Of a DNA stretch of 64,000 nucleotides, positions 55,040 to 64,000 are shown one piece after another. The stretch lies in the NCBI GenBank assembly GCA_002787035.1, contig PCVP01000016.1:17425-81424 (forward strand), read 5' to 3'. Position 1 is the first letter of the stretch. Every line of letters begins with the position of its first letter. Origin of the DNA: Candidatus Peregrinibacteria bacterium CG11_big_fil_rev_8_21_14_0_20_49_14. Lineage in GTDB: Bacteria > Patescibacteriota > Gracilibacteria > Peribacterales > Peribacteraceae. The position numbers and the translations under genes are program-made. Below the pieces are notes generated by a model, which saw only the letters and a list, made by a program, of their open reading frames with translations, was not told where the DNA came from and did no database searches.

Positions 55040-55122
55040 GATTGGTTTCTTCTCATCACTCCCCCTTTCACACACGTTTTGTGTGTATATAGGGCACATC
55101 ATCATTTTAACTTTTGGCTGCC

Positions 55123-58100
55123 ATGAAGCCTTCTGTCTTTCTAGGAGACGACACTCACAGCGACCTGACCCAACTTCTTCAATCCAAGAGGCGTCTTGTG
55201 TTGTCCGGTGCGTCAAATGAGACTGCGAAGGCACTGCTGACAAGCAATATTTTATTGCATCACCCCCAGCCATCCCTTTTGGTTACAGAGAAGGCAACAG
55301 GTGCGGAAGCATTGCGTCACTGGTTGGACTTTTTTGATCTGCAGGCTCACATTCTTCTTCCAATTGAAAATGAGGACGAAGAAATAGACCCTTCCGCACT
55401 ACAAGAATTCCTTTTGTTTATGAGGGGGGAAGATACCAGGGTTTCCATAGTTACCCGCGACCTCTGGGACTCGGATTTTCCGCTGTTTTCAGAGTTGGAT
55501 TCGCAAAAAATTGTTCTGAAAAAAGGTGATGAAGTTGAATTTACCAACATTGTGGAAGATTTGATAGAGAGGGGATACAGCCATGGAGATGATATTTACC
55601 TTCATCCGGGTGAGTACAGAAGGTCCGGTGATACGTTCGATATTTACCCCATTCAAACGACACAACCCTACAGAATTTCATTCCACTTCAATGCAGTGGA
55701 ATCGATTTTCTCAGTTGATTCAAAGGATTTATCCATCACACAAGACGCAGGAAACACCCTGGAAATCTTCCCTGTTATGTACGAAAATACCGCGCCTATC
55801 AGTAAGCAGCTTCCCGGTAAAACACTGCTTATTTTGGATGATCAGGACGACATAGAGGAGCCCATGCAGGTGCACACGTTACGATTCACCGCATTTCCCA
55901 AAACAGAAGAGAACCACATACATCTTCGGTACCTTTCTGTTTTAAAGTTCTACACACTCTCAGACTTCTTAAATGATGTTCGGGACAAAATCCAACAAGG
56001 ATGGAGTCTCTTTGTGGTGACCAAAAGACAGGAAGAACTTCGAAAAATTTGCGAGGAAGAACACATCCCCCACACGGTAAAAACTGAAAAAAAAGGAAGC
56101 GCCATCACAATAATGTCTGCCGCTTTGGATGATCTGCTTCCACACTCTCTGCAAAATCCGGATCTCAAAATCGCACTGCTCACAGACAGAGAAATCTTTT
56201 CGTTACGCAAGTCCATAAAACAGCGCAGTGTGCAAAAGCTCGCACTGGATTTCATAACCTCTCTCACTCCCGGGGACTACGTGGTCCATATGGAGCATGG
56301 AATAGGGCACTTTGAGGGAATGACACAAAAGGAGGTGGATGGTACATCTCGTGAGTATCTGGAACTTACGTATGCCGAAGGCGATAAGTTGTTTATTCCG
56401 GTGGATCAGGCCGACAAGCTCAGTAAGTTTGTGTATGAAGAAGGCAGTGAGCCTTCGCTGACAAGACTCGGCACCATGGAATGGAAAAAGATAACGGAAA
56501 AAATGAGACAGGAAACGGAGAAGATAGCCAAAGAGCTTCTGGAACTGTATGCAAAGCGCGCAAACGCAAAGGGATACGCGTATCAGGACGACGGGGATGC
56601 GATGAAAAAATTTGAAAGCGCATTTAAGTATCAGGAAACTCCGGGGCAGCTAAAAGCGATAGAAGATATAAAGGCGGATATGGAAGATGACCACCCCATG
56701 GACAGGCTTATTTGCGGAGATGTGGGATTCGGAAAAACAGAAGTAGCCATGAGAGCAGCTTTCAAGGCTGTGCAATCCGGGAAACAGGTGGCAGTGGTGG
56801 CACCTATTACCATCTTGGCGGATCAGCACTTCCATAATTTTCGTGAGCGCATGTCGGAATTTCCGATACGCATAGAAATGCTCAGTCGATTCCGCAGTGC
56901 CAGTCAGCAGAAAGAAATTCTGGAAAAACTTCGGAAGGGTGATGTGGATATCATCATCGGAACGCACCGTCTTATTCAAAAAGATGTTGAATTCTTCAAC
57001 CTTGGTTTGGTTATTGTGGACGAAGAGCAAAGGTTTGGTGTGAAACAAAAAGAGCACCTGAAAGAAATGAGAGCATCGGTGGATATTCTCACTCTTACTG
57101 CCACACCTATTCCAAGAACATTGAATCTCGGACTTCATAAATTACGAGATATCACCACCATTACCACTCCTCCTCCGGGGCGTCTTCCCATTATCACCGA
57201 GGTGCGCAAGTATTCGGACCAACTTGTGCGTCAGGCAATTATGTACGAGTTGGAGCGTGGAGGTCAGGTGTATTTGTTGCATAACAGGGTGGAGACAATA
57301 GATGCCTATGCATCCAAGCTGCAGAAACTTGTGCCAACTGCAAAAATTGTTGTGGGGCACGGTCAGCTGAAGCCCGAAGATCTGGAGCGGAGAATCGTCC
57401 AATTTAAAACAGGAGAGTGCAATGTTCTGGTCAGCTCCACAATCATTGAAAATGGTATCGATCTTCCCAATGCCAACACTCTCATCGTCAATGAAGCGGA
57501 GAGATTTGGTCTCGCACAGCTGTACCAGCTCCGCGGTCGTGTGGGACGCAGCAAGACGCAGGCACACGCTTTCTTCCTCTATCATACCCAGAAGCTCAAG
57601 GACGATGCTCGCAAGCGTCTCAGGGCGATTGTGGAAGCCTGCGAGCTTGGTAGTGGGTTCCAGGTGGCCATGCGCGACTTAGAAATTCGTGGTGCGGGAG
57701 AAATACTCGGCGCGCATCAATCCGGGACAATGCATACCGTGGGCGTAAGCCACTATTTGCGTATGCTCAAACATGCGGTCGAAGAATTGCGCACAGGGGA
57801 AAGAGGTACGGCAGAAGAGGAGATTACAGTTGAAATCCAACTCCCCATAGAAGCACTGCTTCCTTCGTACTACATTCCCGACGAGCAGGAAAAAATATCG
57901 GTGTATCAAAAACTTGCAGGAAGTGAAGACGAAGCGATTCTTGCCGAATTTGAAGAAGATCTTAAGGAAGAATATGGCGATCCTCCGAAGCAGGTACTGA
58001 ATCTGTTCGCCATTCTTCGCCTGAAAATGGTTTGCAGAAGAGTCGGAGTGTTGAGAATAAAAATGGAAGAGAAAGTGGGAGGAGATCGTGAAATTGTTCT

Positions 58101-58320
58101 GACTTTAAGCCCCAGAGTTACTGCCAATGAAATAATGCAACTGCTCAGCAGAAACTCGAAATGGCGCATAAGCGGTTCCAATCTCCGGTTGTATGAGAAG
58201 ATGCTCGCAAGCGGACCGGGTAAAAACGACAGAGAATGGTTGGGAAACCTACAGGAGGAAATAGCTGTCCTGGAAAAGAAAAAGAAAAGTGCAGCCAAGA
58301 AGCCAAAAAAACAGGCGTAG
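55123..58320 (+). CDS. mfd: transcription-repair coupling factor
   Basis: PGDYVVHMEHGIGHFEGM, DRLICGDVGFGKTEVAMRAAFKAV, VDEEQRFGVKQKEHLKEMR, TATPIPRTLNLGLHKLRDITTITTPPPGR, LYQLRGRVGRSKTQAHAFF. Confidence 0.96.
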   Translation: MKPSVFLGDDTHSDLTQLLQSKRRLVLSGASNETAKALLTSNILLHHPQPSLLVTEKATGAEALRHWLDFFDLQAHILLPIENEDEEIDPSALQEFLLFMRGEDTRVSIVTRDLWDSDFPLFSELDSQKIVLKKGDEVEFTNIVEDLIERGYSHGDDIYLHPGEYRRSGDTFDIYPIQTTQPYRISFHFNAVESIFSVDSKDLSITQDAGNTLEIFPVMYENTAPISKQLPGKTLLILDDQDDIEEPMQVHTLRFTAFPKTEENHIHLRYLSVLKFYTLSDFLNDVRDKIQQGWSLFVVTKRQEELRKICEEEHIPHTVKTEKKGSAITIMSAALDDLLPHSLQNPDLKIALLTDREIFSLRKSIKQRSVQKLALDFITSLTPGDYVVHMEHGIGHFEGMTQKEVDGTSREYLELTYAEGDKLFIPVDQADKLSKFVYEEGSEPSLTRLGTMEWKKITEKMRQETEKIAKELLELYAKRANAKGYAYQDDGDAMKKFESAFKYQETPGQLKAIEDIKADMEDDHPMDRLICGDVGFGKTEVAMRAAFKAVQSGKQVAVVAPITILADQHFHNFRERMSEFPIRIEMLSRFRSASQQKEILEKLRKGDVDIIIGTHRLIQKDVEFFNLGLVIVDEEQRFGVKQKEHLKEMRASVDILTLTATPIPRTLNLGLHKLRDITTITTPPPGRLPIITEVRKYSDQLVRQAIMYELERGGQVYLLHNRVETIDAYASKLQKLVPTAKIVVGHGQLKPEDLERRIVQFKTGECNVLVSSTIIENGIDLPNANTLIVNEAERFGLAQLYQLRGRVGRSKTQAHAFFLYHTQKLKDDARKRLRAIVEACELGSGFQVAMRDLEIRGAGEILGAHQSGTMHTVGVSHYLRMLKHAVEELRTGERGTAEEEITVEIQLPIEALLPSYYIPDEQEKISVYQKLAGSEDEAILAEFEEDLKEEYGDPPKQVLNLFAILRLKMVCRRVGVLRIKMEEKVGGDREIVLTLSPRVTANEIMQLLSRNSKWRISGSNLRLYEKMLASGPGKNDREWLGNLQEEIAVLEKKKKSAAKKPKKQA

Positions 58321-58352
58321 TGTTTCATATTCACTACAATCGGTATTTGGTG

Positions 58353-58358
58353 TATAAT
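58353..58358 (+). promoter_or_regulatory. extended -10 (TG-TATAAT) just upstream of repeat-protein gene
   Basis: GGTGTATAATTATGAGATATG; 8 nt between hexamer and ATG 58367. Confidence 0.5.
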
Positions 58359-58366
58359 TATGAGAT

Positions 58367-60133
58367 ATGCCTAAATCTTCTTCTCGCAAAGGCTTGCCTC
58401 TTGATGACGAGGCACTCGAATGGACGAAGGAGCAATGGAACGAATACACTTCGAGCCAGAGTTTTATAGATACATACGTGGATGGGGCGGAGGTGAATAT
58501 CAGTACTCTTATTGCGGATATAGGTCCGAAAAAGTATTTGGCTCTCATGGAGAACGGAACGTACCTGGTGTCCTTTAAAGATAAAGTTATTCACTCCAAG
58601 ACTCGCAAGGGAATGGAGATTTTAGGAAAAGCGTTACGCAGAGGAGAGCTTTCCATACGTAAACTTTCGGAGGCGGATATTATTGCGGGCAATAAGGCCG
58701 ACGATCTCATTCAAGACGCCATTACGATTGCCGGAGAGTATCTGGAGCCGAATGCGGACTGGGATGATGACTCGTATGCGGCGGCAATGCTCTGGGCTCC
58801 GGACCAATGGAGAGAGTGCATTCGCTACAGCAACTTTCGCAAACATTTCGTGAGAGGGGGTGTGGTGCAACTTCCGAAACTTAAAAAGTCCGGAATGCCC
58901 GAAGAGCTTATGAACCGTATGATCGATCGCGCACTCAATTTGGTGCGTGTGGAAAATCAAGTGATAGACGCCGACACGGACGAAGGTGTCATTCTGCTGG
59001 AGAAGGCTTTGGCTGAAGGAAAAGTAAGTCTGTCTCGTATGATAGAAGCTGAGGTTTTTACGCGTCAGGAAGCGATAAACCTGCATCAGGAGGCGGTGCA
59101 TTTTGCGGAAAATAACTTGCATGGTTCGGCGCAGTGGGCAGAGGATCAGCGAAAGGTTGTTATTCCATGGATACCCGAACAGTGGGATGCGTTTGTAGAC
59201 AGCGTCGCATTCGATGAGTTTGTGGAGGAGGGGTTTGTGAATATTCCCGCACTTAAAACAGTGATGGGATCTGACATGGTGGATTTATTGCTTGATAAGG
59301 TACATACGCTTGTGGAGGTCGATTCTCGAATTGTGCACTCAACGACCAAAGAGGGTCGCGCTCATCTTTTACGGGCAATAACGAACGGAAAAATATTATT
59401 GCAGACACTTGTACGAGCCGGATTTCTTCATGCATCAGAGGTTGAAGGTAAGTTGGAAGAGGCGCGAAAAATTGCAAAAGCCTGTTTTCAAAAAGGGGCA
59501 AGATGGGATTCACTCAGTGAGCGAGATGCCATGAAATGGTCTCCCGACGAGTGGGATGCTGCCATAAACTGCATTAATTTTGCGGAGAGATTTACAAAGA
59601 AGGGAGTGGTACAGAAAGATGCATTTACAGGTCTTATGAGCGAGGCATTGTACGGTCGCATGGTGCAACGCTCTTCGTATCTTGTGCAGCTGGGTACCGA
59701 TGTTGTGGACGTGCGTACCAGAGAAGGAAGAGATGTCGCAGAAGCAAGTCTGTGGGAAGGGAATATTTCGGTGCGGATGGGTTTGGTCTTAAATCTCATA
59801 ACCCGTGCACAAGCAGACGAGCTGTATGAACAGGCGCGTGAGGTCGCTCGTCGCAATATTCAAAAAGGAAAAAAGTGGAGCAAAGAAGATATAGAATTGG
59901 CAAAAAGCTGGAGTCCGGATCAGTGGCAGCAGGCACTGGAAGCCACAAACTTTTCCATTATTTTTACGGATGACGGAAAGGTGAACAGAGACAGGGCCGT
60001 TGTTGCCATGACACCCGAACTTTTTGATATTATGGTGGAACGTACGCATGCATTTATACGGGTGGGCTCCACCATCTACGACGGATTCACCAAGAAGGGA
60101 TACGATACTTTAAACAGAATGAATCTTCTCTAG
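58367..60133 (+). CDS. tandem-repeat protein, ~124-aa W-x-P-D/E-Q-W repeats (4 full plus 1 partial)
   Basis: Repeat-start Trp at residues 19, 143, 268, 391 and 515 of 588; no recognised family. Confidence 0.8.
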   Translation: MPKSSSRKGLPLDDEALEWTKEQWNEYTSSQSFIDTYVDGAEVNISTLIADIGPKKYLALMENGTYLVSFKDKVIHSKTRKGMEILGKALRRGELSIRKLSEADIIAGNKADDLIQDAITIAGEYLEPNADWDDDSYAAAMLWAPDQWRECIRYSNFRKHFVRGGVVQLPKLKKSGMPEELMNRMIDRALNLVRVENQVIDADTDEGVILLEKALAEGKVSLSRMIEAEVFTRQEAINLHQEAVHFAENNLHGSAQWAEDQRKVVIPWIPEQWDAFVDSVAFDEFVEEGFVNIPALKTVMGSDMVDLLLDKVHTLVEVDSRIVHSTTKEGRAHLLRAITNGKILLQTLVRAGFLHASEVEGKLEEARKIAKACFQKGARWDSLSERDAMKWSPDEWDAAINCINFAERFTKKGVVQKDAFTGLMSEALYGRMVQRSSYLVQLGTDVVDVRTREGRDVAEASLWEGNISVRMGLVLNLITRAQADELYEQAREVARRNIQKGKKWSKEDIELAKSWSPDQWQQALEATNFSIIFTDDGKVNRDRAVVAMTPELFDIMVERTHAFIRVGSTIYDGFTKKGYDTLNRMNLL

Positions 60134-60136
60134 TAC

Positions 60137-60664
60137 ATGGTTTCCACCCAATTTATCACCGGAATCCTTTCTTCCGTTATCCTTGTTGTCGGTGCAGCTT
60201 GGCCCATTCGGAAGGTTTCGAAGCCGGCTTACTCCGTAAAAAACTGGCTGTTTCTTGCGGGGGGACTTGGCATGTTTACGTACTCACTTTTGGGATACCT
60301 GGAAGGAGGTCCGATTTTCTTTGTGATACTGCAAGTATTCATTCTCTGTGCGAGCACTCTCATGATGCTCAATACCGGCGATAGGTTTGATGTGACGGTT
60401 CTTTCTTCGTGCGGATTTGCCATGATTCTCTGGACTCTTACAAATTACGAAGGGATAAGCACTGTTTTTTTCATTCTGGGTCTCTGTGGTATTGGTATCG
60501 GTTACGCACTTAATACGGGCACACTTCGTCGCAATGTTATGCTGGTGCTTGGGAGCATTATCATTGCCGTATTCAGTTACATTGAAATGAGCTGGATGTT
60601 CTTCTGGCTCAACACTTTTTTTGCCCTCTTTTCGGGGTATCACGCACTGCGCTTGCGCAAGTAA
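60137..60664 (+). CDS. small multi-TM membrane protein
   Basis: 175 aa, about 6 hydrophobic segments; starts 4 nt after the repeat protein. Confidence 0.7.
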   Translation: MVSTQFITGILSSVILVVGAAWPIRKVSKPAYSVKNWLFLAGGLGMFTYSLLGYLEGGPIFFVILQVFILCASTLMMLNTGDRFDVTVLSSCGFAMILWTLTNYEGISTVFFILGLCGIGIGYALNTGTLRRNVMLVLGSIIIAVFSYIEMSWMFFWLNTFFALFSGYHALRLRK

Positions 60665-60707
60665 ATAACCGTTGGTGCCGCACCTGGAAATGAATAGGGT
60701 TTTCTGC

Positions 60708-60713
60708 TATAAT
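60708..60713 (+). promoter_or_regulatory. extended -10 element TGC-TATAAT
   Basis: TTCTGCTATAATTTTACG; same TCTGCTATAAT string as at 49844-49853. Confidence 0.5.
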
Positions 60714-60736: not shown

Positions 60737-61120
60737 ATGGCTGATAACTCCAAAAAAGACGGCTCTACCCCCGTGGCATTGTCACCGGCTCTCGAGCGTA
60801 TGCTGCCCTCCGGCACTGAAATATACGACGCACTTATGAGCGCCATAGAGCCCGAGCTACTCAGCGCCAACTTGCCGAGTTTGGAGGAAAAGTATGCCAA
60901 TGAAACACTGCGGCAGAAGAAGGAAAGAGAGATGCGGTACCAGAAAGCTTTTGCCGCATACGACAAAGCATACAAGGGGTGGATCGCAGACCTCAGTTCT
61001 GCAGTAGAGGCAAAAAGGAGAGATGCATACGAGGTGGCGGAAGAAGAAACCAAACATAAAGACGAAGCACTTCTGGGCGACATTGAGTCGCAATTTAACT
61101 CTGCAAATTTCTCCTCTTAA
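60737..61120 (+). CDS. hypothetical alpha-helical protein
   Basis: 127 aa, charged helical composition; 4 nt from the next gene. Confidence 0.65.
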   Translation: MADNSKKDGSTPVALSPALERMLPSGTEIYDALMSAIEPELLSANLPSLEEKYANETLRQKKEREMRYQKAFAAYDKAYKGWIADLSSAVEAKRRDAYEVAEEETKHKDEALLGDIESQFNSANFSS

Positions 61121-61123
61121 GTT

Positions 61124-64000
61124 ATGCACAAGTTCAATTTATTCTCATTTTTACCCACAGCGGAAAGGCGTCTGATTTTTGATCAGCAAGGACCTTCGGA
61201 GCAGCCCAGTGTGCCACGAAGCATCGAGGACGCCGTAAGTTCCGAGGAAATACAGAATCTTTTGGATAATCCCGAAGCGCTTCGTGTAGCTTCCGAACTG
61301 AGGAGTGAATCTGCGAGTGGAGAAAGCAGAGCGCAGGTTGCGAGACTGTCATCTAGCACCGATGTCCGCATTTCTGTGGAACCCGGGGACGCAGTCGATA
61401 CCGTATTGCAACGCGGAAGAAGGGCACAGGTGGGGTCAGGAGATCCGGGATTAGAAGCAACAGATTCAGAAAATACAGTTGCAACATTGAGTGCCAGCGA
61501 TGTAGAAAGCATGCGCGAAAAAGGCCTCCTGAATGAAGATCCGGTTATTTCAGATCGTTTTATAGGCCAAGGACTTGAGGTAAGCCCCGAGGAGCAGACA
61601 TTTCTGTTGCAGGTGGAGACCGAGTATCGCAACGCGTTTAACAGGGCTTCACGCCAGCCGAATTTCAATCTCGAACAATTTAAGCAGGAGCAGATTGCAC
61701 TGTTGAGTGCTCGCGTATCCTCTCGTACGAAGTTCCAGTTGAACCCCGGTATCCCCGGATCATTCGGACTCGGATTGCATACCGAAGAAGCGCCATACAA
61801 ACAGCCGACACCCGAACAGGTTCGTGTGCTTCGGGGCATGGAACAGCGATACAACCAGGCACTGCAGGCAGCCCTGAGGCAAAACGGAGGTCGTCGCCTG
61901 CCTCCTCAGCAGCTTATTCAGCTGAAACAACAGCAGATTGCACGGTTTAACCAGGAGCTGGCACAGACGGATATTTCGGTTCGTTTGCATATGGGTATAC
62001 CGGAAAGTTACTCATTCGGAGTGGACTGGGCCGGTGCGGATGCACAGGTTCCACCCTCTCAACTTGCTCTTGTGGGAAACACAGAGGGCCCTGCAGGACT
62101 TGGCTCCCAGTTGGAACTCGATCCGCAGGCACGGGAAATGGCTGAGAAGATCATGAAAATTATCGAAGCAATTCTCCAAGCAATTCTGGATTTCATAGAA
62201 GGAAATGAGGGTGGAAAAGACTCAAAAACAGAAGCGCCTTCGGAAGACCTTCAGGCTGAAATAGATCGCGAGCTTGCTGCTCCCGGTATGACCAAAGAAA
62301 AACTTCGTGAACAAACAGCTTCCGAATTGGCAGAGAGCCGTAAGGAGGCAAAAGATCTCCGTGGAGACATCACTACCGCGGAGACCGCATTGGGAGATCT
62401 TACTACGAAGGAAAGTGACCTTCAAAAGGCCATAGATAATCCGGAAGAGGGTGCGAATGTCGAAGACCTTAAGACACAGCTTGCGGATGTACGGGGGCAA
62501 AAAACAGAATTGGAAGCGCGTCTGAGTTCCATGCGCGCTCGTCTTAAGGAGTTGGAAGATACTATTATTCCTCGTCTCGAACAAAAACTCGCTCTCCTTG
62601 GCGGAGATGCCGAGAGCGGAAACGAGGACGGACCGCAGCTCACAGAAGAACAAAGAGAGGCTGTTAATGCGAAGGTTCAAGAACTTTTGGATCAACTGGA
62701 TCCTGCCATACGAGATGTGCTCGGAGAGTTTAGAGTTGGTCTTACGCAGCAGGGAGAACCTGCACTCTTCCCAACAAGTGACGGTATACTTCGCGATATA
62801 GCAGGAGAGAAGGGGTTCATTACCATCGCAGAGCTTTCAGATCCCGGTTTCATAGACAGAGTGGCAATTGCCATAGATGCGGCACTCAGTGGTATTGAGT
62901 CAGGAAGCGACACTCAGGGGGAAGATTCTACGAATCAGGAACCGAATGAGAGCAACGGACCAAGTGGAACGCCGGAAAATCTGGGAGACAGCATACGCCA
63001 AGCGCAAAACAGCCTGAAAGACTATGTGCAGCACACCGAAGACTTCGTACAGCGTCGAGTAGTTATGTACCGCGCACATGTGCAGGGTACGCAGGCTGAA
63101 ATAGATGATTTAAGCTACTTGAATCCGTTCAATATTCCTGTGCGCAACGCTCTGAAGAAGCAGTTGGCACAAGAGCAGCGTGCCCTGGATGAAGCAATTA
63201 CCGCACTCTCTCAAATAGATGTTGTCCGCAATCAGGTACAAGCAAAAATCGATGAATCGAATGACACATCCAAAACAGGAGAAGAAAGAATTCAGGCTCT
63301 GAAAGACGGAAGGCAGGCGGTGGAGGGTCTTCGCGGGCTCATTCAGGATGTGAATTACGCGCAAATAAATACGGAGCTTGCAATCATAGACGATCAACTT
63401 GGCATGGCAGAGACCATTCTTAACGCGCCCGCGGAGGCTATAGGCTCGATTGTCGACTATATCGGTACGATACCGGATGCAGCGTCTGAAATTTGGAATC
63501 AGGATATTCTTCCTGCTTGGAATAACACTATTGTGCCGGGACTGAACGACCTTGCGGACTGGGGGGCAGAACAATGGGACGCTGCGGGAGTGGCACTGAA
63601 GGAAATCAGTGACGGTTTCGCCATTCTCAACCAAGGTACAGCCTCGGAATTCGGCGCAGGATACAAAGAGCAGTTCCTCGCCATGTACGGCGAAGGAATG
63701 CAACAGCTCGAGGGTGTTCTTACCGATGCGGGTGTGAACCCGACAGACATTGCCGCATTTAAGCAGGTGGTGGAAAACTCCTTCGATTCGGGAATTGATC
63801 TCGCGCAGGATATTCAGGATCGTGGCATTGCCGTTGTGGCCCAGGAGGCATGGGACGGTATTTCTCAGGAAGCCGTGGTCGCATGGAATGAGAACATACA
63901 GCCCACACTCGACAACATCGGAGATTGGACTGATGTACAGCTTGCCCAGTTGAATCAGGCAATGGGAGAAATCAGTGACGGTTTCGCCATTCTCAACCAA
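61124..64000 (+). CDS. very large helical/coiled-coil repeat protein, 3' truncated by window
   Basis: Continuous open frame from ATG 61124 (MHKFNLFSFLPTAERRLIFDQQGPSEQ...) to the window end; internal diverged repeats; not in the ORF track, probably because it lacks a stop in the window. Confidence 0.85.
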   Translation, partial: MHKFNLFSFLPTAERRLIFDQQGPSEQPSVPRSIEDAVSSEEIQNLLDNPEALRVASELRSESASGESRAQVARLSSSTDVRISVEPGDAVDTVLQRGRRAQVGSGDPGLEATDSENTVATLSASDVESMREKGLLNEDPVISDRFIGQGLEVSPEEQTFLLQVETEYRNAFNRASRQPNFNLEQFKQEQIALLSARVSSRTKFQLNPGIPGSFGLGLHTEEAPYKQPTPEQVRVLRGMEQRYNQALQAALRQNGGRRLPPQQLIQLKQQQIARFNQELAQTDISVRLHMGIPESYSFGVDWAGADAQVPPSQLALVGNTEGPAGLGSQLELDPQAREMAEKIMKIIEAILQAILDFIEGNEGGKDSKTEAPSEDLQAEIDRELAAPGMTKEKLREQTASELAESRKEAKDLRGDITTAETALGDLTTKESDLQKAIDNPEEGANVEDLKTQLADVRGQKTELEARLSSMRARLKELEDTIIPRLEQKLALLGGDAESGNEDGPQLTEEQREAVNAKVQELLDQLDPAIRDVLGEFRVGLTQQGEPALFPTSDGILRDIAGEKGFITIAELSDPGFIDRVAIAIDAALSGIESGSDTQGEDSTNQEPNESNGPSGTPENLGDSIRQAQNSLKDYVQHTEDFVQRRVVMYRAHVQGTQAEIDDLSYLNPFNIPVRNALKKQLAQEQRALDEAITALSQIDVVRNQVQAKIDESNDTSKTGEERIQALKDGRQAVEGLRGLIQDVNYAQINTELAIIDDQLGMAETILNAPAEAIGSIVDYIGTIPDAASEIWNQDILPAWNNTIVPGLNDLADWGAEQWDAAGVALKEISDGFAILNQGTASEFGAGYKEQFLAMYGEGMQQLEGVLTDAGVNPTDIAAFKQVVENSFDSGIDLAQDIQDRGIAVVAQEAWDGISQEAVVAWNENIQPTLDNIGDWTDVQLAQLNQAMGEISDGFAILNQ
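63602..63634 (+). repeat. exact 33-nt direct repeat, copy 1
   Basis: gaaatcagtgacggtttcgccattctcaaccaa, recurs at 63968-64000. Confidence 0.9.
63968..64000 (+). repeat. exact 33-nt direct repeat, copy 2 (cut by window end)
   Basis: Same 33 nt, 366 bp downstream of copy 1, in frame (122 aa). Confidence 0.9.

Follow-up and report, generated by a model that had tools for sequence, protein, structure and literature searches.

What is a bacterial protein that consists almost entirely of an unfamiliar repeat of about 124 residues, and what does it do in the cell? The question is raised by an open reading frame at 58367..60133 (+) of the window, by which we mean the whole 64,000-nucleotide stretch of DNA analysed, taken from the Peribacteria, a little-studied group of very small bacteria. 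It encodes a 588-aa protein (pI 5.3) with four full repeat units and a shorter fifth. A sequence-only reading had described it as a tandem repeat of no recognised family, apparently cytosolic, following mfd and coupled to a small membrane protein. Our answer, offered tentatively and drawn from few orthologs, one group of organisms and structure models of single units, is a probably cytosolic, non-enzymatic, protein-binding scaffold that would serve a conserved pair of proteins encoded downstream.

Architecture and conservation of the repeat protein

The repeat in ORF 58367-60133 is real. Its units open with Trp at residues 19, 143, 268, 391 and 515, giving spacings of 124, 125, 123 and 124 exactly as first read, and a second Trp lies five residues past each opening one. 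Each of the first four units has a closing Trp (132, 257, 380 and 504), eleven residues before the following unit, and the last unit has 74 aa; both had been described correctly. All units lie on the plus strand: units 1 (aa 19-142; 58421..58792), 2 (aa 143-267; 58793..59167), 3 (aa 268-390; 59168..59536) and 4 (aa 391-514; 59537..59908) comprise 123-125 aa each, and unit 5 (aa 515-588; 59909..60130) is the short one. Local alignments of all ten unit pairs scored 69-173, whereas 500 shuffles per pair averaged 24-28 and peaked at 40-54, corresponding to z values of 10-29 with 10/10 pairs above their shuffles, which bears out the tandem arrangement.

Trp, Gly, Phe and aliphatic residues account for most of the unit's strongly conserved columns, a composition that speaks against an active site. 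All orthologs are acidic (pI 4.9-5.6, net charge about -15 to -31), without any conspicuous conserved basic column. Inspection of the sequence by eye revealed no apparent signal peptide or membrane segment, so that the protein is probably cytosolic, in keeping with the first impression of it.

The repeat gene is present in five of 74 genomes (the window's own included), a set that served for the family and is at the same time our whole set for the order; most of the 69 genomes that do not have it carry the small protein described below. GenBank genome contigs contain a copy in Candidatus Peribacteria bacterium RIFOXYB1_FULL_54_35 (L002), and in its own genome the whole repeat protein is encoded at a single locus. 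The four other orthologs are 56% (G019), 47% (G020), 36% (G046) and 35% (G068, truncated by the contig end) identical to it. They are syntenic, preserve the order of the units and share the W-xxx-[QE]-W starts at spacings of 122-125. Average identity is 46% between units that occupy the same position in different species, versus 26% between units at different positions within one protein, which indicates that the array was laid down before the lineages split and that its units have been maintained separately since. Selection acts at the protein level (pN 0.14-0.45 against a near-saturated pS of 0.71-0.82, with Ks saturated for all pairs except one), which marks the ORF as a real gene.

Among the genomes of its genus in our set, G068 (L012) is the one with the repeat gene; its contig is short (6.9 kb), and horizontal transfer, loss in the congeners and misbinning are all possible. 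An origin from a phage or plasmid was considered and rejected, as tblastn gave no match in the phage or plasmid collection.

Predicted fold of the unit

Searches of the unit against Pfam, NCBIfam, PHROG, PADLOC and PDB sequences returned no match above the curated cut-off or with a significant E-value. Matches to winged-helix or helix-turn-helix profiles were sub-threshold, the best being DUF134 (E 0.0093) and DEP (E 0.22) with one member each, and no TPR-, HEAT- or ARM-type Pfam family scored above its cut-off. By sequence, the unit is thus a new-looking family with respect to the libraries searched, which cover proteins, phages, defence systems and the PDB, and the initial failure to recognise it stands.

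AlphaFold2, which had been suggested as a check on one unit, gave a confident model of unit 4 (pLDDT 92.3, pTM 0.79) and of the first 76 residues of that unit taken alone (pLDDT 90.4, pTM 0.76), both from a shallow alignment of ten rows (units of the window and of L002). The two models have the same DSSP assignment: helices at 3-12 and 15-19, a short strand at 24-25, helices at 27-31 and 36-45, strands at 49-52 and 55-58, and a helix at 62-73. This predicted structure follows the winged-helix order H1-S1-H2-H3-S2-wing-S3, a feature that the sequence-only reading had missed along with the related units in other proteins and the conserved downstream pair. The remaining ~50 residues of the unit are modelled as a helical connector. 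Since unit 5 ends where the predicted module of about 74 aa ends, the protein reads as module plus connector four times over, followed by a final module.

Foldseek searches of the PDB gave best E-values of 3.3 (unit) and 2.6 (module), TM-scores to the query of at most 0.55, poor superpositions and no significant match to a solved winged-helix domain; against viral models the best E-value, 3.4, was likewise not significant. As judged from their descriptions, winged-helix proteins make up roughly half of the unit's 27 PDB matches and most of the module's 50 listed ones. They include MarR, GntR, LysR, FNR, MntR, SelB, the La motif, the N-domains of O-methyltransferases and Sso10a, and although many are near-duplicates, they come from many unrelated winged-helix families. 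We therefore treat the resemblance as a lead and do not assign the modelled unit to the winged-helix fold.

Were the resemblance coincidental, the unit would be an unrelated helical and hairpin fold and the array a plain structural spacer. That no Foldseek E-value is below 2.6 and that many matches superpose poorly suits this reading, but the agreement of helix and strand order and the variety of winged-helix families among the weak matches speak against it, and we consider it unlikely, though by no means negligible.

Conserved neighbours and related units

Upstream of the repeat gene lie dnaN and mfd. The latter (55114..58320, +; 1068 aa), identified from its sequence and the gene order, is a conserved neighbour outside the array, 70-81% identical among the five genomes with the repeat gene. 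The original statement that the repeat gene follows mfd is true by position, yet a promoter-like site of its own, TTCACT-17-TATAAT (58330..58358, +), precedes the gene, with 8 nt between the second hexamer and the ATG. TATAAT (TATACT in G020) stands at exactly this distance in 5/5 orthologs (the window, L009, L010, L011 and L012), and GAT immediately precedes the ATG in all five. By chance, one site of the TATAAT-N8-ATG type in the window would be no rarity, and the genome-wide count of such sites (7 versus 4 in a reversed control) shows no clear excess, so the evidence lies in the conservation across orthologs. As judged from this conserved spacing, the repeat gene probably forms a separate transcript, and its mRNA may be leaderless. 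The region has no Rfam match to an RNA element.

The next conserved genes downstream form a pair. The first (60737..61120, +) encodes a small acidic protein of 127 aa, a member of a multi-copy family of ~125-aa proteins with the signature PxGxxIYDxLMxxIEPEL. This family is restricted to the order, occurring in 68 of its 74 genomes with four copies in the window's genome; among 290 genomes sampled across the class, its matches fall in one family (f1) only. The second gene (61124..64000, +) is truncated by the contig end and encodes a large coiled-coil protein, of which 959 aa can be read; in the aligned region its orthologs share 47% (G019) and 27% (G046) identity with it. A promoter-like site with an extended -10, TGCTATAAT, precedes the pair (60685..60713, +), and similar TGCTATAAT/TGCTATACT sites occur in G019 and at the small genes of L082, L083 and L084. 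The small gene in L082 likewise shows TATAAT-N8-ATG.

Near its N-terminus the large protein carries a short motif, AERRLIF (61160..61180, +). Within the first 45 aa, an E-x-R-[LIM] motif occurs in 19 of 25 non-redundant genes directly downstream of a small gene, versus 16 of 282 other ORFs (Fisher p = 6e-16, a value that kinship among the sequences can inflate), and about nine of these 16 resemble further partners by their N-termini. In the pairs of the window and of L046-L086, the partner is usually large, with a Pro/Glu/Ala-rich stretch after the motif in those inspected. One such E-x-R-L protein of 1172 aa (L082:5008-8526) has a C-terminal DnaJ domain (PF00226, E 1.7e-9). By a keyword check, the main text of the Peribacteria genome paper (PMC4736985) seemingly does not describe the pair. 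The repeat protein and its orthologs do not have the N-terminal motif and thus stand outside the E-x-R-L coiled-coil family.

The pair lies 3' of the repeat gene in all four loci that continue past this gene, and several genomes that lack the repeat gene have the pair directly after mfd. This suggests that the repeat gene is an accessory that was inserted between mfd and the pair, and its own promoter-like site together with its absence from 69 of the 74 genomes makes it accessory at best. These observations bear on the idea that the modules bind DNA or RNA along the length of the array, for example as a repair or nucleoid accessory factor. Most structural look-alikes of the unit bind nucleic acids, the weak DUF134 and DEP matches are of the helix-turn-helix type, and the presence of mfd and dnaN upstream would fit such a role. 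Yet mfd appears to be an inherited neighbour of a gene with a separate promoter-like site, and the acidity of all orthologs, with no outstanding conserved basic column, argues against simple DNA binding. On balance, we regard a nucleic-acid-binding array as an unlikely explanation.

Related units occur in other large proteins. A profile of the unit matched the C-termini of two of them: that of the large coiled-coil neighbour in G046 (L011:818-5056) holds three full units (domain scores of 30-53 bits) and a fragment, and that of a coiled-coil protein of 685 aa (L044:8204-10261; E 2.9e-17) in G168, a genome from another family of the same class, holds two units. The G168 protein has a long helical region and begins SRLAYFAGPE, which resembles E-x-R-L N-termini; the small partner gene is not detectable in its family. 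The searches covered genomes of the window's own phylum, and in an even sample of 381 of them only the window's genome, G046 and G168 matched. A 111-aa frame in G171 gave a weak match to the profile (E 9e-4 over 42 positions).

The large neighbour in the window has its own C-terminal repeats of ~122 aa (63560-64000) with W-xxQW-like or W-xEQW starts, otherwise unlike the unit. The idea that they are divergent copies of it was not borne out: in the window and G019 all that they have in common with the unit is the W-xEQW start (hhalign probability of 15 over 10 columns). As the unit is missing from the neighbouring big protein of G020 and is represented in those of the window and G019 by this start alone, a physical link of unit and big protein is not general.

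Another reading is an exported or cell-surface repeat protein that would leave the cell by an unrecognised route and bind the envelope or a partner cell, possibly with E-x-R-L proteins. Surface proteins often contain repeat arrays, and the G168 protein weakly matches a peptidoglycan-binding family (PF01471) at E 0.0027, short of the curated cut-off. However, neither a signal peptide or membrane segment (by eye) nor an E-x-R-L N-terminus is apparent in the repeat protein, and the J domain that ends one E-x-R-L protein points to the cytosol, making a surface location quite improbable.

An incidental neighbour, called a membrane protein in the sequence-only reading, is the 175-aa product of the gene at 60137..60664 (+), which begins after a 3-nt gap in the window; it has no family in PHROGs or Pfam, and its homologs (41-61% identity in 24 of the 74 genomes of the order) vary in genomic location. 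That it forms a functional unit with the repeat protein is very improbable, and the claimed coupling was rejected as local to the window's genome, since in G019, G020 and G046 the 175-aa homolog lies on another contig and the repeat gene still adjoins mfd and the small gene.

Proposed role and comparison with known systems

In two families the unit is found within coiled-coil proteins whose N-termini resemble E-x-R-L, and the repeat gene is adjacent to a gene for such a protein. Both observations favour a putative scaffold for the pair system. Five ~74-aa winged-helix-like modules, joined by four helical connectors of ~50 aa, would form the scaffold, with a surface for binding proteins on each module. 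Since the units keep a fixed order and are not interchangeable, each position may have a dedicated partner, or a dedicated site on one partner. The likeliest candidates are the acidic protein of ~125 aa and the coiled-coil protein that carries E-x-R-L near its N-terminus. We consider this role, and the identity of the partners with it, a reasonable but tentative proposal.

A wider picture, to which we assign a low probability, is that the array is an accessory of a hitherto undescribed intracellular assembly specific to this order of Peribacteria, in which the ~125-aa proteins would each pair with a coiled-coil protein recruited via E-x-R-L docking and the array would link or organise them. 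Whatever the role of the array, its locus led to a conserved multi-copy pair, the small member of which is found in 68/74 genomes of an uncultivated order; the pair is specific to that order and compact enough for biochemistry.

Among known systems, the helical solenoid repeats (TPR, HEAT and ARM), with units of ~34-45 aa, resemble the array in being tandem, helix-rich and scaffold-like. They differ from it in unit length, as the unit here has ~124 aa and contains a beta hairpin, without a Pfam match above cut-off. The C-terminal units in G046 and G168 are clear homologs, but they terminate long coiled-coil proteins with an E-x-R-L-like N-terminus, whereas the repeat protein consists of units throughout. 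Tandem winged-helix (wHTH) domains, as in the C-terminal part of SelB and in ScpB/MukE, share with the predicted fold of the unit both the tandem arrangement and the order helix-helix-strand-helix-helix-hairpin, and SelB is among the weak Foldseek matches of the module. Here there is no detectable sequence relation and no significant structural score, and the repeat protein is set apart by its five modules, the ~50-aa helical connectors, the two conserved Trp residues at the start of each unit and its acidity. The repeat unit may exemplify the use of winged-helix modules as a regular long array in bacteria.
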